DNA from: an uncultured Clostridia bacterium
Lineage (GTDB): Bacteria; Bacillota; Clostridia; Oscillospirales; Acutalibacteraceae
DNA: 39,474 bases
Assembly (NCBI GenBank): GCA_947585965.1
Contig: CANPXK010000017.1
Location: 1 to 39,474, forward strand
Direction of reading: 5' to 3'
The notes under the pieces were generated by a model. The model worked only from the letters and a program-made list of their open reading frames with translations. It was not told where the DNA came from and ran no database searches. Below are positions 1,964 through 22,981 of the stretch, in pieces; position 1 is the first letter of the stretch, and each line of letters begins with the position of its first letter. The position numbers were made by a program, and so were the translations under genes.

Positions 1964-3928
1964 ATGGGGGAGAGAACAAAATTATTTGCAAACAAATTTA
2001 TATTGATACTTGCAATATCGTCATTTGCCGTGTCTGTTTTGGAGGGGCTACTGTACTATTCCAATGTGCAGGTATTTTTCAGAATTTTATTGATTTTTGA
2101 TAACAGTATCAGCGCTTTTACGTTCACTCCGGATATTTCACTTGCAGATGCATTAGAATTTATGGATTTGCATAATTCATTTTTTTATAATGTTGTGGGA
2201 TATTTATACGGTGTGGCGGTGTTTTCCGCACCGTACTGCACTATTGCCGTTGCGTATAAGGCGTTGGAAAATGTTTTACGATTTGTATTTATATTTCATA
2301 GAAGAAAAATCTCGCATAAAGTGATTATCTTTGGCTATAATGAAAGCACGAAATCACTGATTAAAAACTACTCCTTTGAGAAAAACAAAAAAGTATCGGT
2401 ACATATAGTTTCAAATGCGGAATTTGATTCTTCCGAAAGGTATGAGTTGATAAAAAAAGGTTATGTGCTGCATAATTTTGACATACTGAAAGCGGAGGGT
2501 GAAGATATTCACTATCTGTTAAAAAAGGCAGAGGCGGACAGCGCAGACAATATCATAATTTTTAATGATAATTCTGTTAAGAATTTTTCATTGCTGCAAG
2601 TGTTCAGTCTGATAAAGGGTGACGGACGTTTTGTTTTAAAGGCAGGGGCAAAAATAACGTGCAGATGTGAGGACGATAGCATAAGGGAGCTTATTGCCGA
2701 TTATTATAATATAGGCAAGAAGGAAAGCTGTTATGATTTGGAAATAGTGAGTATTCCCGAATTGCAGGTAAGGAAAATGTTTGATGAATTTCCGCTGCAC
2801 AGTTATTACCTGAACACGGATAGTAAGCTGGACGACTGGAACGTACATTTGCTTATAATGGGTTTTGGTTCGATCGGTCAGCAGACACTTTTACAAGCTA
2901 TGAATTTGGGTGTCGTAAGCAAGAAAAATTCCATAGTTGTAGATGTATATGATATTGATATTAAGAGTAAAATGGAAATTTTTACAAACCGTTTCAGTTC
3001 GGATACATTTTATATGGATCAAGGCACGATACGTATTAAAAATACGTCGGCAGACGGCACGTTTGTTGTAAACTGCCACAATTTGAATATAAAATACAGG
3101 GAGTTTATCGAACAGGTGCGTTTGGAAAACTCCAAAAACCCGTACACATATTCCGTCATAGCGATTGATGATATTAACGGTGGAGTGAATTGTGCGATGC
3201 GGCTTGCCAACATATTTGACGAAGACGGAAAAGGCGAAACTCCTATTATATTGCGTATGGATACTGACAGAGTACTTGCAAAGTATATATCTGCCAACAA
3301 CCGTACATTTTCCAATGTGCAGCTTATGGACGATATGAAAGGTGTTATTTCTTTGGAGCTTATACTAAACAAAGAGATAAATATTATGGCGAAAGAGTTC
3401 CACTATTTTTATTCTGCCATACAAATTATCGACAAAGACGAAACACCTTGGAAATCGGAAGAGAACAGTATGGAGGAGTTTTGGAATCACACGTCCATGT
3501 TCAAGAGAGAGTCAAGCAAGGCATTGGCTGCCCATGAAAGTGTGAAGCAAGTCATATTTGAGCGTTTGGAGAGGGAACTGAATATAGATGTTGATGAACA
3601 GATCAACAGTGAGATAGGAGAAAACGGCAGTCTTGTGGAGTATAACGGCGAGATATGGCGATTGATGACAAATGAGGACGATTTTATTAAGGCTCTTATG
3701 AACGATAAATTTGCAGGGTTTATTGCTGATCTTGAACATAGAAGGTGGTGTTATTTTGTTGCCTCACAGGGTTGGAGATATGGAAGTGTGCGGAATGATA
3801 ACAAGAAGACACATAACTGTTTGCAGCCGGTTGATAAGCTGTTGCAGGGGGAAAGGACTAAAACTACGTATAAATATGATATAATGTCGCTTATGTTAAG
3901 ATATGTCAATAATAAAAACAAGCAGTAA
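1964..3928 (+). CDS. Membrane protein with tandem TrkA_N/RCK-like Rossmann domains and a C-terminal RyR domain
   Basis: The 654-residue protein has hydrophobic segments at about residues 10-47 and 72-100. These are followed by a basic turn and two Rossmann-like domains. The first starts at about 117 (VIIFGYNEST, degenerate glycine motif); the second at about 294 carries an intact GxGxxG (GFGSIGQ). The C-terminal part has RESSKALAAHESVK and then, at about 590-640, EHRRWCYFVASQGWRYG...KTHNCLQPVDKL, the hallmark of the RyR (ryanodine-receptor repeat) domain found in bacterial proteins. The layout recalls channel subunits with tandem RCK domains (CASTOR/POLLUX, BK type), with RyR as a likely nucleotide-ligand sensor; channel activity and ligand are inference. 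The start has a GAGGTG site. It is convergent with a TIR gene. Leucine codon use (more TTG/TTA) looks different from the ribosomal genes upstream, though I did not count it. Confidence 0.8.
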   Translation: MGERTKLFANKFILILAISSFAVSVLEGLLYYSNVQVFFRILLIFDNSISAFTFTPDISLADALEFMDLHNSFFYNVVGYLYGVAVFSAPYCTIAVAYKALENVLRFVFIFHRRKISHKVIIFGYNESTKSLIKNYSFEKNKKVSVHIVSNAEFDSSERYELIKKGYVLHNFDILKAEGEDIHYLLKKAEADSADNIIIFNDNSVKNFSLLQVFSLIKGDGRFVLKAGAKITCRCEDDSIRELIADYYNIGKKESCYDLEIVSIPELQVRKMFDEFPLHSYYLNTDSKLDDWNVHLLIMGFGSIGQQTLLQAMNLGVVSKKNSIVVDVYDIDIKSKMEIFTNRFSSDTFYMDQGTIRIKNTSADGTFVVNCHNLNIKYREFIEQVRLENSKNPYTYSVIAIDDINGGVNCAMRLANIFDEDGKGETPIILRMDTDRVLAKYISANNRTFSNVQLMDDMKGVISLELILNKEINIMAKEFHYFYSAIQIIDKDETPWKSEENSMEEFWNHTSMFKRESSKALAAHESVKQVIFERLERELNIDVDEQINSEIGENGSLVEYNGEIWRLMTNEDDFIKALMNDKFAGFIADLEHRRWCYFVASQGWRYGSVRNDNKKTHNCLQPVDKLLQGERTKTTYKYDIMSLMLRYVNNKNKQ

Positions 3929-3951
3929 AACACTGCGGTTTTGTACAGCGC

Positions 3952-3994
3952 AAAAGCAACCGGCGGAAATTCTCCGAACGGCTGCTTTTAATTT
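3952..3994 (+). terminator. Terminator after the RyR gene
   Basis: AAAAGCAACCG (3952-3962) pairs with CGGCTGCTTTT (3979-3989) with one mismatch, and TTTTAATTT follows. The A-rich left arm means it could also serve the opposite strand. Confidence 0.75.
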
Positions 3995-4036
3995 ACATAA
4001 ATATATTTACGTCAATTCTGCGGTTGATATAAAATA

Positions 4037-4057
4037 CCCCCGCCTTAACGACGGGGG
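4037..4057. terminator. GC-rich hairpin between convergent genes
   Basis: CCCCCG and CGGGGG flank a 9-base loop, with A-rich sequence on the left. On the minus strand it is followed by TATTTTATA, so it probably terminates the TIR-gene transcript coming from the right. Confidence 0.55.
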
Positions 4058-4093
4058 GTTATACGGTTATGTACGGATTTTTTAATAGAATTT

Positions 4094-5173
4094 TCAGGAT
4101 TCAAAGGGGTTTTCAAAGCTAAATATGTACCAATTAGAACAAACCTTTTCACCATTGTTTACCCCAACGGCACGGACGGTAATACTAAGTTCTTTACCGT
4201 AGAAGGGGTCGAGTGCGGCTCTAAAACTCGGAGAATTTATTTCTTTGACTTCGTCAACATATCCAACTTCATAACCGGTTGTATTTGGTACAGAAGCCCA
4301 TTTAATATTAACCCCTTCACTCTCAGCCATAAACCTAGGCATAAAGTAAAACTTACCACTCCACTCATTGTCTTCAGGGTTGAACATGCTTACAGGTCTG
4401 AACGATACAGAAAAATTGGTCGGTATACTTAGGGTAGGCGTATAACTAATTTTCTTTCCATTTTTGTATGTTTCCCACTCGTTAGTATTTCCGTTTGTGT
4501 CACGGTATATGAATGTTCCGTTGTTATTGTCTTGGTAGTAATCACCTGTGTAGGTGTAGCGTTCACCGTTTGCACAATACCCACGCTGCGTTCCTTGTAG
4601 GTACTCGTTTTTTAAAATGTACCATCAAATTCACAAGTATCGCCGTTTTGATAAATAATAGTATATGTTCCTTCACCATTAAGGCAGCCGTCTACATAAT
4701 TGTCTTTATCAGTTTCATTACTCCTATCTCCTCCATTAAATTTAATGGTTAATTCTCCATTACTGTTAAGCGCTCCACTTTCAAACAGACCATCACAAGT
4801 AGTCGTACGGTCCGAGAGGTATTGCGTACTTATACTTGAAGAATAGCCGTAAGAACTACTCGAAGAGGAATCATAAGGAATATTTTGAGAAGAAAAGTTC
4901 GAGATTACAAGCACTACCACTAATACTGCAACAACAGCAACTACACTCGCTGCTATTGGAATAACAATCTTTTTAGTGTTTTTATTTTTCTCCCAGTCAC
5001 CAGCGGCGGGTATCATTTGAGAATTATTAGAAACAGCAGACGGCACTTGCTGTGTTTGCATAGGATTTCTCGGTGTTGCAGCAGTTCTCGGAACACCGTT
5101 GAATCCGGATATATTATCTATCTCCTCCTGTATGTTTGAGCCATCGGCACTATTTATATGGAGATGATCAATA
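4094..5173 (-). pseudogene. Frameshifted continuation of the TIR gene: linker, membrane segment, MORN-like repeats, FN3-like tail
   Basis: Just beyond the stop of the TIR-MORN-TIR reading frame, a one-base shift restores a linker (IDHLHINSADGSNIQEE...ISGFNGVPRTAATPRNPMQTQQ) clearly homologous to the linker after the first TIR domain. The same frame continues with a strong membrane segment (IPIAASVVAVVAVLVVVLVI, plus coding around 4900-4990) and MORN-like text (GLFESGALNSNGELTI, GCLNGEGTYTI). It stops at 4612. A second shift of opposite sign there, in an A/T homopolymer (TTTTAAAAAA on the minus strand), restores KNEYLQGTQRGYCANGERYTYTGDYYQ. The text then runs into a tail ending at 4094 with an FN3-like IKWASVPNTTGYEVGYV segment. 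The tail is back in the frame of the upstream TIR domains. The only internal ATG of note (5061) lacks a ribosome binding site. Reading: one former long gene with two lesions, or sequencing errors. Confidence 0.8.
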
Positions 5174-6571
5174 TTAAGTGTTGTTTGTTATATTTTGTAC
5201 GGATTTGCCCGTAACGCCCGCAATAATGGAATAAAGCTCATCTAATTTGTAGTTGCCATTGCTGTAATCGGCGGTTATCCAGTGCGCACCGGTAAGATAA
5301 GATTCGAAAAAACGGGGAAGCTCAGTATCGTCGATTTTGTATGGAATAACAAAAACACCCTCCTCTACCGCCATACTTATCTCAGCTTTTACCGAGCAGG
5401 AAGAAACACTGTTCTTGCTGACGAGAACAAGAAATACCTTTGATGTTTCGATTGCGGTGTTTATAGAAGCAACCCAGTCACTTTCCGGCAAAATATCCCT
5501 AGGAGCCATCCAACAGGTGAGTCCCTTTTCCTCAAGAAAAGCACACACCCTTTCAACAGCCTCCCTGTCTTTTGGGCTGTGGCTTAAAAATACATTGCCT
5601 TCTTTTACATTATAAGTGCCGTTTTTAAATTTGTTGTGTATTTTTCTCTCGCCATTTAACTGTCCGTTCTTAAACGTACCATCTTCAGTTTTCACACCGT
5701 CCGGGGTAAATAGTTTCACTACACCTTTATCGGTTATCATGTTGTCTTGAAATATACCCTCATAGGTAATAGAAATTGTGTTGTTATCATCATCAATATA
5801 AGTACCTTTGAAACTGCCTTTTCCGTCTGCTTCATTTAGTGTATTTACTTCCCCTCTATATATACCTTTGCAGATCCAATCTCCATAGCTTACGCTAAAA
5901 TTATATATTGTATGCTGTGTCTTTTGTGAAAACGGCACTTCCTCCGTTTGCTTTGAAACAGTTCGTTGTGGGGGCGTTACCGTCTGTATATTCTGTGTTT
6001 GATACGGGGACGGTGTTTGCTGTGTTTGCACCGGGTTTCTTCGTGTTGCAGCAGTTCCCGAAACACCGTTAAACCCGGATATACTACTCAATTCGTCCTG
6101 TATGTTAGAACCACCGGAATTGTGTATATGGAGATGCTCAATATATGTATTGTTTGTGATATTCTGCACGAACTTGCCCATAATACCTGCAATAACGGAA
6201 TAAAGCTCCTCCAATTTGTAATCGCCTTTGCTGTAATCGGCGGTTATCCAGTGCACACCGGTAAGATAATATGCGAAAGTACCGGAAAGCTCGGTATCAT
6301 CAATTCTGTAGGGAATAACAAAAATATTCTTTTTCTCCGCAATCGATAGCTCACGTTCTACGTCTTTTGAGGCAGCACTATTCTTACTAAAGAGAATAAG
6401 AAATACCTTTGATGTTGTGATTGCGGTATCTATACAAGCAGGCCATGCATATCCCCCTATAATATCCCTCGGAGCCATCCAACAGGTGAGCCCCTTTTCT
6501 TCGAGAAAAGCACACACCCTCTCAACAGTCTCCCTGTCATTTGAGCTGTGGCTCAAAAATACATCAGACAT
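5174..6571 (-). CDS. TIR-MORN-TIR protein
   Basis: Two TIR domains about 323 residues apart (roughly residues 2-134 and 326-457 from this start) share FLSHS, CAFLEEKGLTCWMAPRDI, SKVFL, a glutamate in the (R/A)E(L/I)S(I/M)A helix, VIPY.IDDTEL and LTG.HWITADYS. That glutamate is at the position of the catalytic residue of NAD-cleaving TIR domains. Between them lie a polar Q/T/P-rich linker and MORN-like repeats (GKGSFKGTY, YEGIF, DGTFKNGQLNG). TIR domains of this TIR_2-like type in bacteria are typically NAD-consuming or signalling enzymes; activity here is inferred. I prefer the ATG at 6571 (MSDVFLSH, AGGG 9 bases upstream) over the ATG at 6589. The second TIR domain follows the MORN part without a start codon, so it is a true fusion. 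The frame ends abruptly after NITNNT, where the homologous linker should continue. Confidence 0.85.
   Translation of the reverse strand: MSDVFLSHSSNDRETVERVCAFLEEKGLTCWMAPRDIIGGYAWPACIDTAITTSKVFLILFSKNSAASKDVERELSIAEKKNIFVIPYRIDDTELSGTFAYYLTGVHWITADYSKGDYKLEELYSVIAGIMGKFVQNITNNTYIEHLHIHNSGGSNIQDELSSISGFNGVSGTAATRRNPVQTQQTPSPYQTQNIQTVTPPQRTVSKQTEEVPFSQKTQHTIYNFSVSYGDWICKGIYRGEVNTLNEADGKGSFKGTYIDDDNNTISITYEGIFQDNMITDKGVVKLFTPDGVKTEDGTFKNGQLNGERKIHNKFKNGTYNVKEGNVFLSHSPKDREAVERVCAFLEEKGLTCWMAPRDILPESDWVASINTAIETSKVFLVLVSKNSVSSCSVKAEISMAVEEGVFVIPYKIDDTELPRFFESYLTGAHWITADYSNGNYKLDELYSIIAGVTGKSVQNITNNT
5177..6565 (-). repeat. Tandem direct duplication of the TIR-coding module, 969-bp period
   Basis: DNA for TIR copy 1 (about 6146-6565) and copy 2 (about 5177-5596) is very similar at nucleotide level. 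For example, the stretches starting near 5511 and 6480 differ at only a few positions over 60 bases. Similarity extends past the TIR end into the linker. This points to a fairly recent duplication, or continuing gene conversion, that fused two TIR-MORN units. Confidence 0.8.
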
Positions 6572-6609
6572 AATAACCAACCCTTTCATAAATAAATTGT
6601 ACCCTCTCC

Positions 6610-6638
6610 AGTATAAGGTAAATCTGCAAAAAAGTCAA
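6610..6638 (-). promoter_or_regulatory. Promoter of the TIR gene
   Basis: On the minus strand TTGACT (6638-6633), a 17-base spacer and TATACT (6615-6610) precede the TIR start by about 40 bases. This is a good sigma-A match, so the TIR gene is its own transcription unit. Confidence 0.75.
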
Positions 6639-6769
6639 TATATTGTGTCAAAAATTGGAACTATTTTGTTGTAGGTCATAAATTTTACTAAAGAAAATTG
6701 TTACACTTCATAACTCAATAAAAACTTTCTATTTTATCCAAAAGCTCCTGATTTTTCATAACAGATGTA

Positions 6770-8377
6770 TTATTCAACGATTTTTTCGGCATGGAAAAAA
6801 TCAACCTCGGCTCCGAACGGGTGGAAAATTATGCCTTTGACATTTCCGGCACTTGCATAATATCTGTTTTCAATATAAAGAGGATAGAATATACCTCTGT
6901 CCAACAGATCCTGTTCAACTCTTTTTATATTGTCCGCCTCCGCGGCTACCTGATTTTTTCTTATTTTTTCCACATCCGAATCATACTCCTCATCATGAAA
7001 TGAAGCGGTATTATATTTGCTTGATGATTCAAACATTTCCAAAGTGCTCAGAGGTGTATTCCCCTGAATGGTAAGCGGGGCAATAACGATTTCAAAATCA
7101 CCGCTGCCTATTCTGTCCTTCAATTCGGAAACAGGAACAGGCTTTTTATTGAAGTATCCTCCGCTTAGTCCGTTCCATGTTTCAATCAGATTATTGACAA
7201 ATAACTGAGTTTTGTCATCATCCGAGCATAGTATGGTTATGTTTGTGATATTGTCAAGCTTCAGGTTCTTCATACCCTTTGCAAGAAGCTTATCCGGGAA
7301 TTCGCTCTTTTCAAATGTAATGTTGCCTGCAATTTCCCTGTATTTTTTATCGTCAAGTACGGCACTGTCCGGAATGATGTTTTCCGTAATAATGCAGTTA
7401 TCCGGCATATTCGCGAGAATATAATCTCTGTCAATTGCCGACAAAAAAGCTTTCCTTATGTCTTCGTCTTTAAAAATTTCATCCGTATTGTTAAATGAGA
7501 TACCCCATATTGTATCTCCGAATCCCTTGATATTGAATCCGAGACTTTCTGCCTGTTCTTTATCGGCTGATGTTATGGAACCGCAGTCTATTATTCCGTC
7601 CTCTATTGCACCGCATATATCGTCCGGGGTATCACCGATAGTAATATTTACCCCCGCAGGCACCGGTTTATCTTCTCCCGTATATTCCTGATTTTTTCGC
7701 AGATATATATATTCGTCATGCACCCAGCCGTCCTCTCTGATATAAAAAGCACCGTTGCAAAGAAGCTTGTCATCCTCTCTGCCGTATTGACCTGCCGTTT
7801 TTTTAAAAAATGATTCGTTGCAGGGCATTGCAGGTGCTGTAGCTAAGAGCTGCAGGAAATCCGGATCAGGATATTCAAGCTGAAATATTATCGTGGACTC
7901 ATCCGGTACAAAAACGCCGAGAGAGGAAATATCCGCTTCTCCCGTACTGACTTTTTCCGCATTTTTTATACAGTAGAGCGTCGAAGCTGTCGGCGAAGAG
8001 GTCTGCGGCATAAGAGTTCTCTGTATACCGTAAATGAAATCATTTGCTGTAAGCTTGGTTCCGTCATTCCATTTAAGATTATCACGCAGACGGAAAGTAT
8101 ACATTAGTCTGTCCTTGCTTATTTCCCAGCTTTCGGCCGCACCGGGAATTATATTATTTTCCTCATCTATGCGGACAAGACCTTCAAAAATATTCATGAT
8201 AACAAGTCTTGAGCTTGAATCGTTTGCAATCTGGGGATCAAGCGTAACAGGTTCGTAGTCGGTATTATAATTTATAATCTGATCCTCGGGGAGCTCAGTA
8301 TCCCTGTCGCAGCCACAGACTGATATAAAAAGGCTAAGAGAAAACACTATACATAACAATTTTTTTATCATTTTCAA
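6770..8377 (-). CDS. Family 5 extracellular solute-binding lipoprotein (peptide/oligopeptide type)
   Basis: Substrate-capture lipoprotein of a dipeptide/oligopeptide-type ABC importer. A lipoprotein signal (MIKKLLCIVFSLSLFISVCGC, lipobox VCGC) precedes the family-5 core: YEPVTLDPQIAND, IFEGLVRIDEENNIIPGAAESWEIS, YTFRLRDNLKWNDGTKLTANDF. I prefer a TTG start at 8377 because GGAG lies 8 bases upstream; an ATG at 8371 and one at 8401 are alternatives with poorer spacing. About 535 residues, normal for OppA/DppA. No permease or ATPase gene lies beside it, so it is an orphan binding protein whose ligand cannot be told. It is divergent from the cytidylate-kinase-like operon. Confidence 0.9.
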   Translation of the reverse strand: MKMIKKLLCIVFSLSLFISVCGCDRDTELPEDQIINYNTDYEPVTLDPQIANDSSSRLVIMNIFEGLVRIDEENNIIPGAAESWEISKDRLMYTFRLRDNLKWNDGTKLTANDFIYGIQRTLMPQTSSPTASTLYCIKNAEKVSTGEADISSLGVFVPDESTIIFQLEYPDPDFLQLLATAPAMPCNESFFKKTAGQYGREDDKLLCNGAFYIREDGWVHDEYIYLRKNQEYTGEDKPVPAGVNITIGDTPDDICGAIEDGIIDCGSITSADKEQAESLGFNIKGFGDTIWGISFNNTDEIFKDEDIRKAFLSAIDRDYILANMPDNCIITENIIPDSAVLDDKKYREIAGNITFEKSEFPDKLLAKGMKNLKLDNITNITILCSDDDKTQLFVNNLIETWNGLSGGYFNKKPVPVSELKDRIGSGDFEIVIAPLTIQGNTPLSTLEMFESSSKYNTASFHDEEYDSDVEKIRKNQVAAEADNIKRVEQDLLDRGIFYPLYIENRYYASAGNVKGIIFHPFGAEVDFFHAEKIVE

Positions 8378-8424
8378 GTTATCAGCTCCAATCATAGACA
8401 TATTTTAAATACATTATAGTTATT

Positions 8425-8453
8425 ATGATAAGATTTTCCTTTGATAAAGTCAA
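8425..8453 (-). promoter_or_regulatory. Promoter of the solute-binding protein gene
   Basis: Minus strand TTGACT (8453-8448), 17 bases, TATCAT (8430-8425). Confidence 0.65.
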
Positions 8454-8520
8454 CAACAAAACGGATACGAATTTATTACAACTGTGTAGCCTTGGAATAT
8501 AGATAAAAAACATGAAAATA

Positions 8521-8549
8521 TTTACATAAAACTGTTTAAATTTTATAAA
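8521..8549 (+). promoter_or_regulatory. Promoter of the cytidylate-kinase-like operon
   Basis: TTTACA (8521-8526), 17 bases, TATAAA (8544-8549), followed about 45 bases later by GGGAGG and the ATG at 8607. Confidence 0.6.
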
Positions 8550-8606
8550 AAATATGTTACAATAATATAATAAAAGTGCAGTATAAGTAAATCGGGAGGT
8601 TTTATT

Positions 8607-9224
8607 ATGGTAATTACAATAGCAAGGCAATTCGGCAGCGGCGGCAGAAAGATAGGTTATAAGCTTGCCGAGAAACTTGGCATAGAATATTACGATAAAA
8701 ATCTTATCAATATAGTTGCCAAGGAAAGCGGACTTGATCCTGATGTGATAGAAGGGATGGACGAAAAATCCACAAGCAGCCTTTTATATTCGCTTTCGGT
8801 CGGTGCGGCTGCCGTTTATGACAGCGGATTCAGGATTGAACCGCAGCTTCCGCTGAACGACAGACTTTTTCTTGCACAGCATGACGTTATAAGGAAAATA
8901 TCAGTCAAGCCGTGTGTCATTGTCGGAAGGTGCGCGGATTATATTCTTTCGGAAAGAAAGGATGTCGTAAAGCTGTTTATTTATGCCGATATGGATAAAC
9001 GTGTTGAATATGCAATAAAGGAATACGACGTAAATCCTAAAAAGGCACAGAGTGTTGTAACAAAGACAGATAAGAGCAGGGCGAATTATTATAATTTTTA
9101 TGCATCCGGAAAATGGGGAGATCCGAATAATTATGATTTGTGCATAAACAGCGGAAAAATAGGACTTGACGGAAGTGTTCAGTTAATAATTTCATACCTC
9201 AGACAGAGGGGTATGGTAAGATAA
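8607..9224 (+). CDS. Cytidylate kinase-like family protein
   Basis: A 205-residue P-loop nucleotide kinase of the Cytidylate_kin2 family. It starts with ITIARQFGSGGRKIGYKLAEKLGIEYYDKNL, in which GSGGRKIG is the family's variant of the nucleotide-binding loop. It also carries PCVIVGRCADYIL, a helical lid region KRVEYAIKEYDV, and the family tail (YYNFYASGKWGDPNNYDLCINS). These proteins are distinct from Cmk and their substrate is not firmly known. A strong GGGAGG site precedes the ATG. It overlaps the next gene by one base (TAATG), so the two are translationally coupled. Confidence 0.88.
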   Translation: MVITIARQFGSGGRKIGYKLAEKLGIEYYDKNLINIVAKESGLDPDVIEGMDEKSTSSLLYSLSVGAAAVYDSGFRIEPQLPLNDRLFLAQHDVIRKISVKPCVIVGRCADYILSERKDVVKLFIYADMDKRVEYAIKEYDVNPKKAQSVVTKTDKSRANYYNFYASGKWGDPNNYDLCINSGKIGLDGSVQLIISYLRQRGMVR

Positions 9225-9727
9225 TGAAGGGATTTTTTTCTGTGGCTCTGTCAGGGGTGTTTTTGTCGTTATCTGTTGCTTCATTATGCTCATGCGGAAA
9301 CGCTCCCGAGGAGGAAACTGTTTCCGGTGAGGATATAAGCTATGTTTCTATGGGATCGGATACGGCGGATATGCTTGAGGATGTTATAACAAATTATCTG
9401 TCGGCGGTTACCGAACAGGATCATATCGGTATTATGAGCTATACCACGGAGGATTTTATCTGGAACTATGATGAAACGGCGTTTTATGATTATTCGAGAT
9501 ATATAACGGATTTTTCGGTAACTGATGTGGATGAGGAGCATATTATGTGCAGGGAAAACGAATATACCGTGCCTGTTTCATATGTGCTGACCTATTCCGG
9601 TGTGCATACCGATGATAACGGCAACAGTCAGGATGCCGGGGAATATGAATATTCCCGTAATTTTATTATTATATACGAGGAGGACAGATATCTGATATCG
9701 GATATAACCGAAATGGTGATGGGTTGA
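9224..9727 (+). CDS. Small lipoprotein with NTF2-like fold pattern
   Basis: 167 residues. The N terminus is a lipoprotein signal (SLSVASLCSCG, lipobox LCSC), followed by an acidic stretch and a domain of about 110 residues (DVITNYLSAVTEQDHIGIMSYTTEDF ... YLISDITEMVMG). The helix-then-curved-sheet pattern resembles NTF2/SnoaL-like domains, but I cannot assign a family. Its start overlaps the stop of the kinase-like gene by one base. Probably a surface-anchored ligand-binding or structural protein. Confidence 0.75.
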   Translation: MKGFFSVALSGVFLSLSVASLCSCGNAPEEETVSGEDISYVSMGSDTADMLEDVITNYLSAVTEQDHIGIMSYTTEDFIWNYDETAFYDYSRYITDFSVTDVDEEHIMCRENEYTVPVSYVLTYSGVHTDDNGNSQDAGEYEYSRNFIIIYEEDRYLISDITEMVMG

Positions 9728-9745
9728 CGATTGAGGATGGAAATT

Positions 9746-10000
9746 ATGAAGGAATATACTTATTTGGGAAAGTCAGACGGAAAAAGATTTTGTATAGACG
9801 GTGTGGATGTTTTTTCGCATAAGTGGCGGTCATTCGGAGAATGTGATGTAGTGCTGCACCCGCAGACAAAAAAACCGTATAGCTTTTCGGTTTATACAAT
9901 AGAAACACCCGGGAAAAATATAAGGTTCCTTGCAGGTAAATTTGACAGTGACGATTGGGTATTCTATAAGGAATTTGATGACGACGATATTATTTTTTAA
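9746..10000 (+). CDS. Hypothetical protein, 84 residues
   Basis: Small soluble protein beginning MKEYTYLGKSDGKRFCIDGVDVF and ending in an acidic run (EFDDDDIIF). I do not recognise a family. I chose the ATG at 9746 because GAGG lies 9 bases upstream; a TTG at 9731 and ATG at 9737 extend the frame but have no binding site. It lies 18 bases after the lipoprotein and 17 before the beta-helix gene, so it belongs to the same operon. Confidence 0.65.
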   Translation: MKEYTYLGKSDGKRFCIDGVDVFSHKWRSFGECDVVLHPQTKKPYSFSVYTIETPGKNIRFLAGKFDSDDWVFYKEFDDDDIIF

Positions 10001-10017: not shown

Positions 10018-10689
10018 ATGATAAATAATAATCTTACGGTAGGAAATTTGCTTGATTTGTCGAAAAGTATTGCATCGGGGCTTTTTGAGGGACTCACATA
10101 TCCTTGGGAAGCCTTGCCGAAGATATCTGAATATATAATTTCTATAGGAGGCAGTCTGTCGGAGGATGAATATGAATATAAGGGTGACGGTATATGGATA
10201 GCAAAAACTGCAAATATAATGACGTCAGCCTATCTTGCCGGACCGCTTATCGTCTGTCCGGATGCCGAGATAAGGCATTGTGCATTCATAAGGGGAAGTG
10301 CAATAATAGGCAGAGGAAGCGTTATAGGCAATTCCTCGGAGCTTAAGAACTGCATTATTTTCGACAATGCACAGGTACCGCACTATAATTATATTGGTGA
10401 CTCGATTCTCGGTTACAAATCACATCTCGGTGCCGGGGCTAAAACCTCGAACCTGAAATCTGATAAGACACCGGTAACGATAATGGCGGACGGTGAAAAA
10501 ATAGATACAGGACTTAAAAAATTCGGTGCTGTTGTGGGGGACAATGTCGAGGTCGGATGCAATGCGATACTGAATCCGGGAACGGTTATAGGCAGAAATA
10601 CGACAGTTTATCCGCTTTCTATGGTCAGGGGATATATTCCGGGCGGAAGTATATATAAAAAGCAGGGCGAAATCGCCGAGAAAATGTAA
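10018..10689 (+). CDS. Left-handed beta-helix protein (GlmU C-terminal/UDP-GlcNAc pyrophosphorylase-like)
   Basis: 223 residues. After an N-terminal helical part of about 60 residues come isoleucine-rich hexapeptide repeats (IWIAKTANIMTSAYLAGPLI, AEIRHCAFIRGSAIIGRGSVIG, GDNVEVGCNAILNPGTVIG), which build a left-handed beta-helix. The protein resembles the acetyltransferase half of GlmU and the short UDP-N-acetylglucosamine pyrophosphorylase-related proteins of Clostridia. It has no nucleotidyltransferase domain, so if it is an enzyme it is more likely an acyltransferase. Last gene of the operon that starts at 8607. Confidence 0.8.
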   Translation: MINNNLTVGNLLDLSKSIASGLFEGLTYPWEALPKISEYIISIGGSLSEDEYEYKGDGIWIAKTANIMTSAYLAGPLIVCPDAEIRHCAFIRGSAIIGRGSVIGNSSELKNCIIFDNAQVPHYNYIGDSILGYKSHLGAGAKTSNLKSDKTPVTIMADGEKIDTGLKKFGAVVGDNVEVGCNAILNPGTVIGRNTTVYPLSMVRGYIPGGSIYKKQGEIAEKM

Positions 10690-10757
10690 GGTGCTTTAAT
10701 AAAATAGTATTTTTTATATTGCAATTTATAAAATAACCCGACTTTTTAATTTTGGTA

Positions 10758-10786
10758 TTGAAAAAAGTTTATTTGGGTATTATAAT
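10758..10786 (+). promoter_or_regulatory. Promoter of the DUF1858 gene
   Basis: TTGAAA (10758-10763), 17 bases, perfect TATAAT (10781-10786); the ATG follows about 33 bases on with an AGAAAGGA binding site. Confidence 0.8.
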
Positions 10787-10819
10787 ATATGTATATAAAA
10801 ACAGAAAGGAATTATAATT

Positions 10820-11023
10820 ATGGCACAGATAACTAAGGATACGATAATCGGGGATATTCTTGATATTGATGAAACGACAGCGCCGCTTTTTCTTTCAATA
10901 GGAATGCATTGTCTTGGCTGTCCCGCATCAAGAGGTGAAACTGTTGAGCAGGCTTGTGCAGTTCACGGTGTTGATGCTGATGAGCTTGTCGATAAGCTTA
11001 ATGAGCATATAAATAATAAATAA
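10820..11023 (+). CDS. DUF1858 domain protein
   Basis: A 67-residue single-domain protein with the DUF1858 pattern: an N-terminal helix (TIIGDILDIDETTAPLF), then GMHCLGCPASRGETVEQACAVHGVD. The CxxCP motif is what gives the family its suggested redox role (hybrid-cluster-protein-associated disulfide domain). No biochemical function is settled. It has its own promoter and terminator, so it is monocistronic. Confidence 0.9.
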   Translation: MAQITKDTIIGDILDIDETTAPLFLSIGMHCLGCPASRGETVEQACAVHGVDADELVDKLNEHINNK

Positions 11024-11038
11024 TTATATTTATCTCCG

Positions 11039-11064
11039 AAGCCGCAGGGTGATCTCTGCGGCTT
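11039..11064 (+). terminator. Terminator after the DUF1858 gene
   Basis: AAGCCGCAG pairs with CTGCGGCTT across an 8-base loop; the T tract is short (TTTAT). Right after it, GGGAGGGG starts the next gene's binding site. Confidence 0.7.
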
Positions 11065-11088
11065 TATGTGTGTCGGGAGGGGTGGTTC

Positions 11089-11769
11089 ATGTTCAGACTC
11101 GATGACAGATTATCATTGTGTGCCTCATTTGTGCGTGAGGGCGTATCGCTTGCAGATATAGGCACGGATCACGGGTATTTGCCGATATGGCTTTTGGTCA
11201 ATAAAAAAATCAGTTATGCAGTTGCGGCAGATGTAAGAGAGGGACCGCTTGACAGGGCAAGGATGAATACGGAAAGGTACGGACTTACTGATAAGGTGAA
11301 AACCGTACTGTCGGACGGTCTTGACAATATAACGGCTGATGAGGCCGATGACATAGTAATGGCAGGTATGGGCGGTGAGCTTATAGCAAAGCTCATAGAC
11401 AGAACGCCATGGCTTAGGGATTCAAACAAAAATCTTATACTTCAACCGATGACAAGGGCGGAGGTACTGCGGGAATATCTTTGTAAGTCAGGCTTTTGCA
11501 TAAAGGAGGAAAAAGCCTGTATATCATTCGGCAAAACCTACAGTGTTATACTTGCGGCTTATGACGGAACAATAAGACCGTGTAACTTAAAATACAGATA
11601 TGTGGGTAAACTTGATGGCGATAAGTCAGCCGAGGCAAAACGGTATATATATGTCGTAAACGAGAAGCTTAAAAAAAAGCTGAACGGATATGAATACGGA
11701 ACTGAGGAATATAATTCCGTAAAAGCATTGATATCGGAATTATCGGAACTGACCGATACGGAGGAATAA
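11089..11769 (+). CDS. trmK: tRNA (adenine(22)-N1)-methyltransferase
   Basis: SAM-dependent enzyme that makes m1A22 in tRNA. The Rossmann start VREGVSLADIGTDHGYLPIWL holds the SAM-binding DIGTDHGYLP motif typical of TrmK. VMAGMGGELIAKLID and LILQPMTRAEVLREYL are further family signatures, followed by a C-terminal coiled part. I chose the ATG at 11089 (MFRLDDRL) because GGAGGGG is correctly spaced; an ATG at 11068 lies inside the terminator region. The gene is 2 bases from nif3, the same pairing seen in many Firmicutes. Confidence 0.93.
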   Translation: MFRLDDRLSLCASFVREGVSLADIGTDHGYLPIWLLVNKKISYAVAADVREGPLDRARMNTERYGLTDKVKTVLSDGLDNITADEADDIVMAGMGGELIAKLIDRTPWLRDSNKNLILQPMTRAEVLREYLCKSGFCIKEEKACISFGKTYSVILAAYDGTIRPCNLKYRYVGKLDGDKSAEAKRYIYVVNEKLKKKLNGYEYGTEEYNSVKALISELSELTDTEE

Positions 11770-11771
11770 TA

Positions 11772-12524
11772 ATGGTAACAGCGGGACAAATATTGAATTA
11801 CATAAATGAAATTGCACCTTTTGATACGGCTATGAGTTTTGATAATGTAGGACTGCTCATAGGAAGTGAAGATCAGACCTCTGAAAAGGTTCTGCTTGCG
11901 CTTGATATTACATCAGAGGTAATTGATGAAGCCGCGGCAGAGGGTGTAAAAATAATAATAAGCCATCATCCGATAATATTTAATCCGCTTAAAGTTATAG
12001 AAAAGGACAGTATATCCTATCTTGCGGTAAAAAATGATATAACGGTTATATCGGCACATACAAACCTTGATATTGCAAATGTGGGAGTAAATAATACACT
12101 TGCCGAGTCGGTCGGGGTAGTATCTGAAGGCGGTACGGATTCGGAATGTCTGCTTTTAGGGGAGCTTGAGGAGGAAATCAATTCCGACAAATTCGCAAAT
12201 AAAATCAAATCCGCATTATCCTGTCACGGACTGAGGTATTCAAGGAGAAAAGGTACAATAAAAAAGGTAGGGATATCCTGTGGAGCGGGCGGGAGCAATA
12301 TTTTTGCCGCCGCATCGGCAGGGGCTGAAGCTTTTGTAACAGGAGAGATAAAACATCACGAGATACTCTTTGCAAATGAAAGAAATATAGCGGTATTTGA
12401 TATAGGTCATTTCCGTTCCGAGGATATGATAATACCGAAGCTTGCCCTGCTTTTAGGGAAAGAATTCCGGGATACTGTTTTTAAACAGGCGGAAAGCGAT
12501 ACGGATAAGATGATGTATATTTAA
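11772..12524 (+). CDS. Nif3-like dinuclear metal centre protein
   Basis: NIF3/YqfO-family hexameric metalloprotein of uncertain function. Diagnostic motifs are SFDNVGLLIGS, ISHHPIIFNPLK, SAHTNLDIANVGVNN, TGEIKHHEILFA and DIGHFRSE, which supply the histidines, aspartate and glutamate of the two-metal site. At 250 residues it lacks the inserted PII-like domain of long YqfO forms. Coupled to trmK upstream. Confidence 0.93.
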   Translation: MVTAGQILNYINEIAPFDTAMSFDNVGLLIGSEDQTSEKVLLALDITSEVIDEAAAEGVKIIISHHPIIFNPLKVIEKDSISYLAVKNDITVISAHTNLDIANVGVNNTLAESVGVVSEGGTDSECLLLGELEEEINSDKFANKIKSALSCHGLRYSRRKGTIKKVGISCGAGGSNIFAAASAGAEAFVTGEIKHHEILFANERNIAVFDIGHFRSEDMIIPKLALLLGKEFRDTVFKQAESDTDKMMYI

Positions 12525-12556
12525 AACAGTTATAATTTTCGATTCGGGGGTATATT

Positions 12557-14302
12557 ATGGCACTTGACGGTGTATTTTTAAGACATATAAAAAAGGAGCT
12601 TGAAGAAAAGCTTATCGGAAGCAGGATAGATAAAATTTATCAGCCTGCGAAGGATCGTCTGCTTCTTACAATGCGTTCAAGGGAGGGAAGCTGTAAGCTT
12701 CTGATTTCCGCAAGAGCAGATGCTCCGAGGATAAATATAACAACGGCCTCTCCGGAAAATCCTAAAGTACCGCCTATGCTCTGTATGCTTCTGCGTAAAA
12801 GGCTTTCGGGGGCAAAGCTGAGATCTGTAGGTCAACCCGACCTTGAAAGGACGCTTATGCTTGAATTTGAGGCTGTGAATGAGCTTGGGGATATCGTAAT
12901 GCTCAGGCTTGCGGTTGAAATAATGGGACAGTACAGCAATATTGTATTTGTTGACGAAAACGGCATAATTATAGATGCAGTCAAGCGTGTTGATGCTTCG
13001 ATGTCATCGCAGAGGCTTATACTCCCCGGGATAAAATATGAGATGCCGCCAAAGCAGATAAAGCTCTGTATGCTTGATAAGGATGCGGAGGATATAATAA
13101 ATGCGGTTGAAAACCTTCCCGGTTCACAGCCGCTTTCAAAGGCACTTCTTTCTGTTATACAGGGGGTGTCACCTATAATATGCCGTGAGCTTGAATATCT
13201 GACAGGCAGAGGGGCGGATGTATATTCAAATGATATGAATGAGGAGCAAAAAACACGTCTTTCATATTTTCTTAAGAGGGATATCAATATCGCAAGGGAA
13301 TGTTCGGGAATACCGTGCATTATAACGGATATAAATAATAAGCCGATAGATTTCACATTTGAACATATACAGCAGTACGGCTCCGGCAGGTCAAAGCAGA
13401 GAACCGATACATTCAGCGGTTTGCTTGATATTTATTATTCACAGCGTGATAATATCACTGCAATAAAATCAAAATCCGAAGATCTCACAAAACTCCTCTC
13501 CAATGCGGCAACACGTCTTATAAAAAAGATATATATACAAAGTGATGAGCTTAAGACCTGTGCCGACAGAGAGCATTTAAGAATATGCGGGGATCTTATT
13601 CAGGCTAACCTGTACAGAATAGAGAAGGGAGCAGCGGAATGTGAGGTTGAGAATTTCTATGATGAAAATACGGCGAAGATAAAGATAAAGCTTGACCCGT
13701 CGATTTCTCCGTCAGCCAATGCACAGAAATATTATAAAAGCTATCAGAAAGCAAAGACAGCCGAGCAGGTTCTGCGTTTGCAGATAGAGCAGGCGGAAGC
13801 CGAGCTTGATTATATATCATCGGTATCCGACAGCCTCAGCAGGGCGGAAAGTGTTAGGGAGCTTGACGAGATACGGCAGGAGCTTACCGAGGAGGGCTAT
13901 ATAAAGGTAAAGGGTAAAAAGCCGAAAAATGAAAAGCCGCTTCCGCCGCTTGAATTTACTTCACCTAACGGTTTTAAGATACTTGTAGGAAGAAATAATA
14001 AGCAGAATGATATGCTTACTCTTAAAAAATCGGATAAAAATGATATATGGTTTCATGTAAAGGATATACCGGGGTCACATACAATAATCATTACAAACGG
14101 AAAGACTCCCGATGAGGATGATATACTTTATGCCGCACAGCTTGCCGCTTGTCACAGTAAGGCGAGGGAGTCGGGAAAAGTACCTGTAGATTATACAAAG
14201 GTCAGATTTGTCAGCAAGCCGAGAGGCGCAAAACCCGGTATGGTAATATACGTCAATCAGACGACTGTATATGTTGCACCTCAGCGGCAGACCGATATAT
14301 AA
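12557..14302 (+). CDS. rqcH: Rqc2 homolog RqcH (NFACT/FbpA family)
   Basis: Ribosome-quality-control factor that binds 50S subunits with stalled peptidyl-tRNA and promotes alanine tailing; older annotations call it fibronectin-binding protein FbpA. The NFACT-N domain starts MALDGVFLRHIKKELEEKLIGSRIDKIYQP and contains NPKVPPMLCMLLRKRL and EIMGQYSNIV. A long coiled-coil middle occupies about residues 290-450. The C-terminal NFACT-R domain has GFKILVGRNNKQND, DIWFHVKDIPGSH and KPGMVIYVNQTTVYV. 581 residues, normal length. It lies 32 bases after nif3. Confidence 0.93.
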   Translation: MALDGVFLRHIKKELEEKLIGSRIDKIYQPAKDRLLLTMRSREGSCKLLISARADAPRINITTASPENPKVPPMLCMLLRKRLSGAKLRSVGQPDLERTLMLEFEAVNELGDIVMLRLAVEIMGQYSNIVFVDENGIIIDAVKRVDASMSSQRLILPGIKYEMPPKQIKLCMLDKDAEDIINAVENLPGSQPLSKALLSVIQGVSPIICRELEYLTGRGADVYSNDMNEEQKTRLSYFLKRDINIARECSGIPCIITDINNKPIDFTFEHIQQYGSGRSKQRTDTFSGLLDIYYSQRDNITAIKSKSEDLTKLLSNAATRLIKKIYIQSDELKTCADREHLRICGDLIQANLYRIEKGAAECEVENFYDENTAKIKIKLDPSISPSANAQKYYKSYQKAKTAEQVLRLQIEQAEAELDYISSVSDSLSRAESVRELDEIRQELTEEGYIKVKGKKPKNEKPLPPLEFTSPNGFKILVGRNNKQNDMLTLKKSDKNDIWFHVKDIPGSHTIIITNGKTPDEDDILYAAQLAACHSKARESGKVPVDYTKVRFVSKPRGAKPGMVIYVNQTTVYVAPQRQTDI

Positions 14303-14367
14303 TATTTGCAGATACCAAATTATTATTCTGCATATAATATAAAAAAAGTTAATATAATTAAAGGTTT

Positions 14368-14395
14368 TTGTATCAAAGATAGAAAAACTTATAAT
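14368..14395 (+). promoter_or_regulatory. Promoter of the Na/phosphate cotransporter gene
   Basis: TTGTAT (14368-14373), 16 bases, perfect TATAAT (14390-14395), leaving a leader of about 95 bases before the start. Confidence 0.6.
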
Positions 14396-14493
14396 TCTTA
14401 TAAAGAATATTAACTGTCGGATGTTGTAATATTATTGAAGGGTACAGATAAAGAGGATAATAATTAAGAGTAGGAAAAACGGAGGACTTTGGT

Positions 14494-16152
14494 ATGACCT
14501 TCAATGAGGAAATAATGATGCAGGTTATTCTTGCACTCGGAGGACTGGGACTGTTTCTATACGGAATGAAGCTTATGGGAGAGGGACTGGAGCTTGCCGC
14601 AGGTTCAAATCTGCGGACGCTTCTGGAGAAGCTTACGACAAACCGTTTTCTCGGTGCTTTGGTGGGAATTATAGTAACTGCAATTATACAAAGTTCAACA
14701 GCAGTATCAGTGATGTGTGTCGGCTTTGTAAATGCCTCGATAATGAATATAAGTCAGGCTATGGGAGTTATTATGGGAGCCACTATAGGTACGACAGTAA
14801 CGAGTGTGCTTCTTTCCATACAAATATCGGATTATGCACCTCTTGCGATATTCATTGGTGCATTTATGGTTGTTCTGAGTAAAAAGAATAACACAAAATA
14901 TATCGGTCAGATAATAGCGGGCTTCGGAATCTTGTTTTTCGGCATGACAACAATGAGCGGAAATCTTAAGCCGCTTGCGTCCTCTGAAGCTTTCTCTCAT
15001 ATTATAACTTCGGTAAGTAATCCGATTGTAGGCATACTATTCGGTATAGTATTTGCGGCGATTATACAAAGCTCCTCAGCTGCTGTAGGTGTACTTCAGG
15101 CATTGGGAGCCGCGGGGGCACTGACACTGCCTAATGCGGTATATATGGTATACGGTATTCATATAGGAGCCTGTGTAACGGCGGTTATATCGTCACTCGG
15201 TGCGACAAAGGCGGCAAAGAGAACAGCTATTTCCTATGTTGTATTTACCTCATTGGGTGCGATATTATTTGCACTTCTGTCCATGTTTACCCCGTTTAAT
15301 CAGTTTATAGAATCACTAACGGAGATAGTACCGTTCCGTATATCACTTGTACATATCATCTCAAGTATTGTAGCAACGCTTGTAATGCTTCCGCTTGAGG
15401 GAGTGATAATAAAGCTTGCCTGTATTGTCATACCGGGTGAGGATGAAAATGAAAAGGAAGCGAGCAGGCTCAAATATGTTGACGAACGTATGCTTAAGAC
15501 GCCTCCGTTTGCCGTTTCACAGATTACAAAGGAAATTGAGAGGATGGGTATGCTTGCAAAGAAAAACTTTACAAAATCAATGCAGGCATTTATAAATCAG
15601 GACGAGAAACTTATAGCCGAAGTAGAGGAGAACGAGGAAGTAATTGATTATCTTAACATGGCTATAACAAATTATCTTGTCAAGATAAACGGATTGAACC
15701 TTGAAGACAGCGACCGGGTAAAAATAGGTTCATATTATCATGTTGTGAGTGATATGGAGAGAATAGGGGATCATGCTGAAAATATATGTGAGCTTGCACA
15801 GAATATTATAAAAAAGGGAGAAACCTTTAGTGATACGGCTCTTGAAGAAGCAAATAAGATGCAGGCGTTGGTCGATAGTATTCTTGATGAATCGTTAAAT
15901 ATGTTCAAGTCATCCTATTTCGATAATAAAACAGCGGATATTGTAAGCAGCATTGAGCAGGAGATAGATGATAAAACGGCGGAATACAAGGAAAACCACA
16001 TTGAAAGACTAAGCACAGGAAAGTGTAATGCAACGGTGGGTACATTGTTTATGGAGCTTCTTACCAATCTCGAAAGAATAGCTGACCACAGCATAAACAT
16101 AGCATTTTCCACATCAACAAAGAAATCAACCGGTGCAGCGGTTACAAATTGA
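14494..16152 (+). CDS. Na/Pi cotransporter family protein with C-terminal PhoU domain
   Basis: 552-residue sodium-dependent phosphate transporter of the NptA/PNaS type, in the membrane. The N-terminal membrane half holds the two inverted repeats with the family's QSS motifs (IIQSSTAVSVMCVGFVNA and IIQSSSAAVGVLQALGAAG) and GLFLYGMKLMGEGL. The C-terminal half (from about residue 340) is a helical PhoU-like domain with YYHVVSDMERIGDHAENICE and NLERIADHSINIA. The start has an ACGGAGGA site. Its own promoter and terminator make it monocistronic. Confidence 0.93.
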   Translation: MTFNEEIMMQVILALGGLGLFLYGMKLMGEGLELAAGSNLRTLLEKLTTNRFLGALVGIIVTAIIQSSTAVSVMCVGFVNASIMNISQAMGVIMGATIGTTVTSVLLSIQISDYAPLAIFIGAFMVVLSKKNNTKYIGQIIAGFGILFFGMTTMSGNLKPLASSEAFSHIITSVSNPIVGILFGIVFAAIIQSSSAAVGVLQALGAAGALTLPNAVYMVYGIHIGACVTAVISSLGATKAAKRTAISYVVFTSLGAILFALLSMFTPFNQFIESLTEIVPFRISLVHIISSIVATLVMLPLEGVIIKLACIVIPGEDENEKEASRLKYVDERMLKTPPFAVSQITKEIERMGMLAKKNFTKSMQAFINQDEKLIAEVEENEEVIDYLNMAITNYLVKINGLNLEDSDRVKIGSYYHVVSDMERIGDHAENICELAQNIIKKGETFSDTALEEANKMQALVDSILDESLNMFKSSYFDNKTADIVSSIEQEIDDKTAEYKENHIERLSTGKCNATVGTLFMELLTNLERIADHSINIAFSTSTKKSTGAAVTN

Positions 16153-16191
16153 TATGGGAGTTGTTACCGGGAATTATATAACATACAAAAT

Positions 16192-16230
16192 GGGAGTGCC
16201 GATACTGAACTGACACTCCCTTATTTTTTT
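16192..16230 (+). terminator. Terminator of the Na/Pi gene, overlapping the convergent glycosyltransferase end
   Basis: GGGAGTG (16192-16198) pairs with CACTCCC (16214-16220), followed by TTATTTTTTT. The T tract overlaps the last codons of the convergent minus-strand gene. Confidence 0.8.
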
Positions 16231-17177: not shown

Positions 17178-17190
17178 GATATCACCCCGA

Positions 17191-18132: not shown

Positions 18133-18155
18133 CGTTGATATTACCTCATTATATT

Positions 18156-19235: not shown

Positions 19236-19282
19236 AATTCCTCCGAACACTGTAAAATTATCCGCAGATTACCATACAATTT

Positions 19283-19311
19283 ATAATAGCATTAATTTGA
19301 AAATAAATCAA
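19283..19311 (-). promoter_or_regulatory. Promoter of the flippase-GT2 operon
   Basis: Minus strand TTGATT (19311-19306), 17 bases, TATTAT (19288-19283). Confidence 0.6.
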
Positions 19312-19403
19312 TACGATATGAATATAAGAATTAAATAATGCAAAAATATAGCTGTTTGCTCAATAAAACATCACGGGTAATTAATTTTTTGTTATAAAAG
19401 AAG

Positions 19404-19441
19404 GGCAGCAACATTAAGCCTATGAAGACCTAATTGCTGCC
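19404..19441 (-). terminator. Terminator of the UgtP-like gene
   Basis: GGCAGCAA and TTGCTGCC form an 8-bp stem with a 22-base loop; the minus strand continues CTTCTTTTATAAC. It lies about 60 bases beyond the stop of the upstream minus-strand gene. Confidence 0.6.
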
Positions 19442-19498
19442 ACTGTCCCGATTATTATTTTATCGGTTTTTTGTATTCCGACATCAGCCGGCTGATAA

Positions 19499-20788: not shown

Positions 20789-20835
20789 AGTATCATCCTT
20801 CCGTAGTAAAATATTCCAATAATACCACCACGAAT

Positions 20836-20864
20836 ATTATATCTCATAAATATAAATATTTCAA
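20836..20864 (-). promoter_or_regulatory. Promoter of the UgtP-like gene
   Basis: Minus strand TTGAAA (20864-20859), 17 bases, perfect TATAAT (20841-20836). Confidence 0.75.
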
Positions 20865-20989
20865 CAAAAAATAATTTTTTCTGTCTGCGGTTCTGTGTAA
20901 TTTTTTTTGTGTCGTAAAATAGTCTAAAAATAAAAAAAAAATTAAATTAAGTTTGTCAGTATTTACTTCTTTATTTAACGAAAAAAAGC

Positions 20990-21019
20990 TTTACATCCGC
21001 CCGTATTTTGGTGTATTAT
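20990..21019 (+). promoter_or_regulatory. Promoter of the VanW gene
   Basis: TTTACA (20990-20995), 18 bases, TATTAT (21014-21019), about 50 bases before the start. Confidence 0.55.
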
Positions 21020-21072
21020 ATAGACGGATAGAAAGGTATCCGCGGAACTCATTCTGATTGGAGGTTATCTTA

Positions 21073-22914: not shown

Positions 22915-22941
22915 TAAATCGGAAATAAATAATTAATAATT

Positions 22942-22978: not shown

Positions 22979-22981
22979 TAC

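Follow-up and report, generated by a model that had tools for sequence, protein, structure and literature searches.

A putative TIR-signalling module in Clostridia that pairs TIR genes with a predicted RyR-domain, double-RCK channel

What would a membrane protein with a ryanodine receptor (RyR) domain be doing beside a TIR-domain gene in the genomes of gut bacteria? The question is raised by a stretch of 39,474 nucleotides (hereafter the window) from an uncultured Clostridia bacterium of the family Acutalibacteraceae (assembly GCA_947585965.1, contig CANPXK010000017.1, positions 1 to 39,474), in which a gene for a 654-residue RyR-domain protein (1964..3928, plus strand) faces a TIR gene on the minus strand. 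A first-pass annotation had suggested that the two might form a nucleotide-signalling immunity cassette. The analysis presented here leads, with moderate confidence, to the view that they belong to a TIR-signalling module, most likely antiviral, in which an ADP-ribose-type messenger made by the TIR protein would be read by the RyR domain and would gate a cation channel. The observations behind this proposal are the domain make-up of the proteins, the predicted channel fold, the repeated genomic pairing, the conserved pocket residues and the accessory distribution of the genes; from these we infer TIR catalysis, the identity of the messenger, gating, the ion and a role in defence.

Homologues of the 654-residue protein, here termed the channel, were collected from named genomes (17 loci, among them L026, which is spurious), from the order (2 of 394 genomes), the genus (6 of 64) and the class (2 of 391), own genome included in each, and from the family to which the genome of L016 belongs (9 of 299, that genome included); one homologue was found in Fusobacterium vincentii (L040). 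A genome-wide count of TIR genes was available for 27 loci, which exclude L026 (a 68-residue match), the locus of G017 (L006, a 49-residue match to the RyR domain only) and the F. vincentii locus, where the pair is present and the genome-wide count is lacking; L003-L005 duplicate L011, L015 and L014. Four of the 27 (L011, L017, L018 and L019) are cut by contig ends and were set aside. At 18 of the 23 loci that could be judged, a TIR gene lies within 5 kb of the channel gene, against 0.21 expected under a model of random placement that takes no account of the clustering of accessory genes in islands; after removal of five close kin, the count is 13 of 18 against 0.16. It should be noted that the genomes are mostly drafts, in which links across contig ends are invisible. 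As a control, none of 89 TrkA_N matches in 20 genomes fell within 5 kb of a TIR_2 match, whereas the RyR channel did so in 18 of the 20, a comparison that favours the channel through the choice of genomes, as seven of the 27 were left out (four that could not be judged, and G466, G467 and G914, which have no linked TIR gene), and in which several of the TrkA_N matches are paired domains within a single gene, many probably represent core genes and distances were read off tables by eye. Chance neighbourhood is rejected by the observed and expected counts and by the TrkA_N control: the pairing is not due to chance. Homologues of the two genes, whose rare neighbourhood the first-pass annotation had named as a refuting result, are usually neighbours.

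The convergent orientation of the window pair had been held to weaken the case. This doubt is removed by the 15 of 18 pairs that are co-directional; the only convergent ones are the window, L010 and L022/L039, all three in the genus of the window. The TIR gene is upstream of the channel gene and overlaps it in L012, L013 and L041, lies directly upstream in L057 and in the Fusobacterium locus L040, precedes the channel gene in L016, L054 and L058 and follows it in L020, L021, L023, L055 and L056, and in L037 an open TIR frame begins right behind the channel stop codon. L014 and L015 have a TIR gene on either side of the channel gene, with DUF4268 in the downstream one. Scans of the TIR proteins of L012, L040, L055 and L056 gave beta-propeller or WD40-type matches. 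In a midpoint-rooted channel tree, built from an alignment of 25 rows that omits L021, L022 and L025 and accompanied by a warning of long branches from the tree tool, every larger clade has TIR neighbours and the type of partner differs from one clade to the next, which argues for a functional link between TIR protein and channel that persists through partner exchange. As a separate observation, a broken RyR channel gene stands beside a TIR gene at 4253-5336 of L022 (the same locus as 1846-2595 of L039), a second decaying convergent pair.

What kind of protein is the partner of these TIR genes? Its open reading frame (ORF), Pfam matches, predicted model and fold matches describe a membrane protein with two Rossmann domains and a RyR domain, as the first-pass annotation had proposed. 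Predicted secondary structure, together with the GsuK and family alignments, gives a membrane part (1970..2305) composed of a long helix at residues 3-31 (transmembrane helix 1), a short helix at 37-51 that resembles a pore helix and a second long helix at 73-114 (transmembrane helix 2); these transmembrane and pore labels are putative, model confidence being moderate in this part. A first RCK/Rossmann domain follows at residues ~117-275 (2312..2788), placed by fold comparison with CASTOR/DMI1, GsuK and MthK, and a second at residues ~294-471 (2843..3376), placed by model, fold comparison and alignment. The second domain has a glycine-rich loop in which G300 is kept in 25 of 25 aligned rows, G305 in 23 and G302 in 20. 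A Pfam scan of the protein found no Rossmann family above cut-off, and the Rossmann domains are drawn from fold comparison. The RyR domain (3719..3898, Pfam and alignment) matches PF02026 over residues 586-635 with 32.7 bits against a cut-off of 27.4 (35.5 bits in the genome search), and the C-terminal domain matches PDB sequences of RyR2 (E 1e-10) and a RyR1 chimera (E 1.4e-12) as well as small PDB chains named putative ryanodine receptor. The predicted model (m440001727d6a) has a pLDDT of 85.5 and a pTM of 0.79, with pLDDT values mostly of 58-82 over the first 120 residues. Leading fold matches are the gating ring of plant CASTOR/DMI1, GsuK, KtrA, TrkA, Slo1 and MthK, and the alignment to GsuK spans model residues 3-503, membrane part included. 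By prediction and fold comparison, then, the order is transmembrane helix, pore helix, transmembrane helix and two RCK domains. Given this helix pattern, the two Rossmann domains and the fold matches, the protein looks like a two-transmembrane, double-RCK channel to which a RyR domain has been added, and the RCK-type channel that had been suggested for it agrees with the shape predicted here.

A TVGYG-like motif is the canonical K+ selectivity filter. None was seen by eye in the pore segments of the 25 aligned rows, and the protein is therefore not filed as a K+ channel.

If the pairing points to a signal passed between the two proteins, where might it be read? RyDEP, a phage protein with a RyR domain, is shown in a 2026 preprint (PMC13232231) to bind the cyclic ADP-ribose (cADPR) signals 2'/3'cADPR and to cleave them; H75, W78, H100 and D117 contact the ligand and cleavage uses H75 and D117. 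In the same preprint, six of eight phage homologues of RyDEP bind 2'/3'cADPR signals and none of the eight cleaves, cleavage being reported for RyDEP alone. The equivalents of H75 and W78 in the channel family, H592 and W595, are invariant in all 25 rows. D639 is likewise invariant in 25 of 25 rows and is the probable match of D117, an alignment that requires a gap. The position of H100 (617) holds histidine in 15 of the 25 rows. Further, the distant homologues L040, L053 and L055 keep the motifs EH(K/R)RW and YD.

RyR domains were also surveyed beyond the channel family. PF02026 has matches in 21 of the 291 class genomes searched, and a TIR gene lies within 5 kb at 8 of 24 RyR loci (23 stretches and the window), namely the window, L085, L088, L089, L091, L092, L093 and L095; the TIR gene was checked by Pfam for L085, L089, L091, L092 and L095, those of L088 and L093 rest on a custom profile, and a neighbour of L087 that looks TIR-like by eye, matching neither the custom profile nor Pfam, was scored as a miss. 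Several of these neighbours stand beside RyR proteins that are not RCK channels, of ~100 residues in L085, L089 and L091-L093 and of 578 residues in L095. Pairing with TIR genes is thus common for several RyR types and far from universal. A second kind of TIR-RyR arrangement, different from the double-RCK channel, is seen in L092 (2152-7378) and L093 (1-4658), where three genes in succession encode a protein of 683 or 743 residues that matches RyR weakly, a small RyR protein of ~100 residues and a TIR protein. L100 (5510-6955), L103 (5574-7019) and L107 (5522-6970) share a RyR protein of ~480 residues with a membrane-type N-terminus, encoded at a constant position close to what by eye is a yebC-like gene; it has no TIR gene nearby and looks like a core-type RyR protein.

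Whether the channel gene is itself a core gene linked to tsf was examined in the genus. It was found in 6 of 64 genomes, and it lies directly behind tsf in the window and in G454. Among 18 tsf regions of genus relatives, a pyrH-like gene (by eye) directly follows tsf in six, follows after one gene in one and probably follows directly, masked by an antisense frame, in another; one region is cut by a contig end, that of G030 carries a cassette of third gene (see below), TIR gene, RyR gene and TIR gene, and eight carry other genes. The idea of a core gene next to tsf is rejected by this occurrence and by the six regions with a pyrH-like gene directly behind tsf. From the occurrence in 6 of 64 genomes and the varied genes behind tsf, it follows that the cassette is an accessory element at a variable site. 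Two markedly dissimilar versions of it are found at this site in the genus, and their channels are ~43% identical. The stretch behind tsf (the tsf-pyrH region in L127-L144) is also, as an observation in its own right, a frequent break or insertion point in the genus. No relative of the channel was found in viral contigs or in phage records, none matched its structure in a viral structure library at E <= 0.001, and the single match in a plasmid collection is a Fusobacterium record of chromosome size. The stretch around one of the TIR genes of G459 (L059) contains no channel.

The TIR gene of the window is less orderly than its description as a single TIR-MORN-TIR gene implied. The frame (5174..6589, minus strand; ORF, Pfam and alignment) encodes 471 residues, in which repeats that resemble MORN by eye separate one TIR domain (6236-6562) from another (5267-5593); position 6571, first taken as the end of the gene, is an internal ATG, and the ORF starts at 6589. 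It matches TIR_2 with 155 bits against a cut-off of 28, ThsB and other TIR models of PADLOC match it, and an aligned, putatively catalytic glutamate is present in all 13 TIR domains compared. Two TIR_2 domains on the minus strand are thus confirmed; MORN gained no Pfam match in the window pieces (E up to 1) or in the L010 proteins (E up to 0.1). L010, whose channel is 95% identical to that of the window, carries two distinct TIR genes in tandem, of which the outer is truncated at the contig end. Compared with L010, the window frame joins the front of one TIR gene to the next, which is itself spread over two frames with two shifts; a decayed rest of the second gene (4094..5173, minus strand; ORFs 4612-5061 and 4094-4387) is out of frame with the 471-residue ORF. 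From this alignment, the TIR gene of the window appears to be chimeric and damaged, the product of a tandem TIR duplicate that has fused, partly decayed and gained two frameshifts, unless the assembly is wrong. With its TIR partner damaged in this strain, the window copy of the cassette may work poorly or not at all.

How, then, might an intact module work? On meeting its trigger, the TIR protein would turn NAD into an ADP-ribose-type messenger, which would be bound by the C-terminal RyR domain of the neighbouring membrane protein. The double-RCK gating ring would pass the change to the two-transmembrane pore, cation flow would be altered, and the cell would be halted or killed before the phage could multiply. 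The pairing with TIR genes suggests that the TIR-made signal opens the channel. The nucleotide-signalling interpretation first offered for the locus is partly supported. Its genomic half is borne out by the 18 pairs and the accessory site, the channel idea agrees with the fold comparison, and the binding of cADPR-type signals by RyR domains has a precedent in phage (PMC13232231); its functional half (TIR catalysis, ligand, ion flow and immunity) is putative. The accompanying premise that RyR and TrkA_N domains had already been proposed as sensors in conflict systems could not be traced in the two conflict-system papers searched: neither term occurs in PMC7159879 or PMC9503650, from which 'ryanodine' is absent as well. 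A broader reading can be offered as a possibility to be held tentatively: TIR-made cADPR-type messengers would open a RyR-gated cation channel in antiviral defence, RyR would be a wider class of bacterial sensors for TIR products, free-standing at ~100 residues or fused, RyDEP would be a captured copy of such a sensor, and the link between cADPR and the ryanodine receptor in animals could have a bacterial forerunner.

Several observations weigh against a TIR-made messenger that gates a RyR channel. Five of the 23 loci have no TIR gene within 5 kb (L024, L025, L051, L052, with one at 5.2 kb, and L053), although L025, where the channel gene is in two frames, was scored as a miss despite an ORF ~3 kb upstream (5782-6864) that looks TIR-like by eye and has no profile match. 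The genomes of L024 and L051 have no TIR_2 match at all. No TIR gene is present on the readable side of L011 and L017-L019, which, if counted as misses, would bring the pairing to 18 of 27. In the pocket, position 617 is asparagine in 10 of the 25 rows, D639 does not line up with D117 unless gaps are allowed, and three distant homologues fall below the RyR cut-off (no match for L040 and L053, 19.4 bits for L055). With regard to the channel, its Foldseek list also contains unrelated Rossmann proteins, no canonical K+ filter was seen, as noted above, and PADLOC gave no match for it. For nine further RyR loci of the class (L099-L107), whose proteins look membrane-type at the N-terminus by eye, the sequence retrieved, in two cases only a short contig, contains no TIR gene, showing that RyR membrane proteins can occur without TIR. 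In the window, the TIR gene is broken, and ten ORFs further along (10018-23869) have no defence-type Pfam family.

Other arrangements of the same two proteins can be considered. The first, which appears unlikely, is that the TIR protein depletes NAD, that the second RCK domain reads the state of NAD or ADP and that the RyR domain does something else. The mostly kept glycine-rich loop of that domain, and the presence among the fold matches of GsuK structures with NAD and ADP (4gx2 and 4gx1), would fit such sensing of NAD loss, which leaves unexplained both the invariance of H592, W595 and D639 and the TIR genes beside RyR proteins other than RCK channels (L085, L089, L091-L093 and L095). Next in order, and also improbable, is the reverse flow of information, in which the membrane protein, as a sensor of ions, of voltage or of a nucleotide, activates the TIR protein, NAD depletion kills the cell and the extra parts of the TIR proteins serve for docking. 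Gene order varies, and the large extra parts of partner TIR proteins (beta-propeller or WD40-like, DUF4268, repeats) could indeed dock; however, these parts vary by clade while the RyR pocket is fixed, and so a shared small molecule fits better than a docking surface. There is only a slim likelihood that the RyR domain damps the signal, by binding or cleaving it as RyDEP does, and that the membrane protein regulates the TIR protein or serves as its antidote. RyDEP cleaves 2'/3'cADPR via H75, whose equivalent is invariant in the channel family, and D117; yet none of its eight homologues in PMC13232231 cleaves, six of them being binders, and a pore and a gating ring would be needless for a damper. 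That the two are ordinary neighbours, the ion channel being accessory and the TIR gene having no relation to it beyond a common variable site, is very improbable, since the variability of the site behind tsf and a terminator-like hairpin between the convergent genes of the window are set against 18 paired loci, many with co-directional genes that overlap or nearly abut, in Fusobacterium likewise, and against the absence of TIR genes near the TrkA_N matches.

The channel loci hold other genes as well. A third co-directional gene is present in seven loci: L014 (5761-7929), L015 (1124-3289), L016 (12000-13958), L020 and L021 (both 8012-9982, the two being nearly the same), L054 (6277-8340) and L058 (10105-12111). 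Its protein contains the motif HRDHYSHS...FHDxGYPFE and can be called HD-like from this His-Asp motif by eye only. Among four such proteins scanned, no family was found above cut-off; that of L014 has a weak C-terminal RyR match below cut-off (19.8 bits, E 9e-4), that of L054 a RyR match at E 0.07 and two have none, and the predicted model has low confidence (pLDDT 49.4). A gene that by eye is MIF/tautomerase-like (L024 9367-9711 and L051 2469-2819) immediately precedes the channel gene in the two genomes without a TIR_2 match, and an asparaginase-like gene (by eye) lies behind the TIR gene in L020 (13074-14081, after one more ORF), L021 (13105-14112) and L052 (15110-16000).

The window cassette is flanked by housekeeping genes, as had been claimed: rpsB (39-779) and tsf (859-1767), both on the plus strand and recognized by eye from their translations, on one side, and a gene for a family 5 solute-binding protein (6770..8401, minus strand; Pfam SBP_bac_5) on the other. 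The tsf protein was matched in all 19 genus genomes searched. The hairpin between the convergent genes (4037..4057, minus strand) has eight pairs, seven of them G-C, and a second, weak one lies at 3922-3936; hairpins of this kind between 1700 and 6900 are not in excess of shuffled sequence (4 against 3.6). In profile searches, the window genome has TIR_2 matches at only two places (three matches) and a single RyR match. The original observation of two genes is thus partly borne out, in that the RyR/Rossmann protein, the TIR domains and the flanks stand and a clean TIR-MORN-TIR gene does not.

If the proposal is true, TIR signalling would acquire an output by way of an ion channel as well as a sensor domain new to it, and phage RyR-domain proteins would gain a bacterial counterpart. 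Additionally, a small bacterial system would become available for asking whether RyR domains are receptors of cADPR-type signals, a question that is open for animal ryanodine receptors.

To which known systems might the pair be compared? The C-terminal domain of the channel matches the R12 repeat of the animal ryanodine receptor in sequence, and both are parts of cation channels, for the bacterial protein by prediction. The animal receptor is a channel of ~5000 residues with a different pore architecture; the opening of the bacterial channel by a TIR-made signal would recall the presumed action of a related signal on it. CASTOR/DMI1 and GsuK, which are not known to have a RyR domain, share with the channel two tandem RCK domains (PDB 6o7c, 7vm8 and 4gx5), and GsuK also shares a two-transmembrane pore; identity to the channel is only 9-14% in fold alignments, and CASTOR responds to Ca2+ (PMC6697748). 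Binding of cADPR at the animal RyR domain is put forward only for future study in PMC13232231. RyDEP itself (PMC13232231; PDB 35TM) belongs to the same domain family, and its H75 and W78 are kept in the channel; it is a free-standing phage counter-defence enzyme of 138 residues, whereas the domain described here forms part of a channel-like protein of the host, encoded next to a TIR gene. In the literature searched (titles and abstract openings), no description of the channel-TIR pair was found, and only PMC13232231 treats RyR domains together with TIR signals. The terms 'ryanodine receptor' and 'TIR domain' occur together in PMC8295901 and PMC10242710, as do RyR and TIR in PMC10715442.

Another parallel in design is Thoeris, in which a TIR gene has a neighbouring effector-like gene, as at 18 of the 23 loci judged here. 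Thoeris with a TM-macro ThsA (PMC11204291) likewise combines a TIR protein with a membrane effector that has a nucleotide-binding domain; its sensor is a macro domain and its transmembrane parts cluster, whereas here the putative sensor is a RyR domain on a predicted RCK-gated channel. With SIR2-SLOG ThsA (PMC11204291 and PMC9503650) the likeness is that a TIR-made cADPR isomer is read by the sensor domain of a neighbour, here by proposal; the difference is that the channel has neither SIR2 nor SLOG by Pfam and that the effector is not a known NADase. Since RyR is the only Pfam family above cut-off in the channel, which lacks both SIR2-SLOG and macro domains, the pair is neither of these types. 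By analogy, it would work like Thoeris and stand, on the Pfam evidence, outside the two Thoeris types compared.

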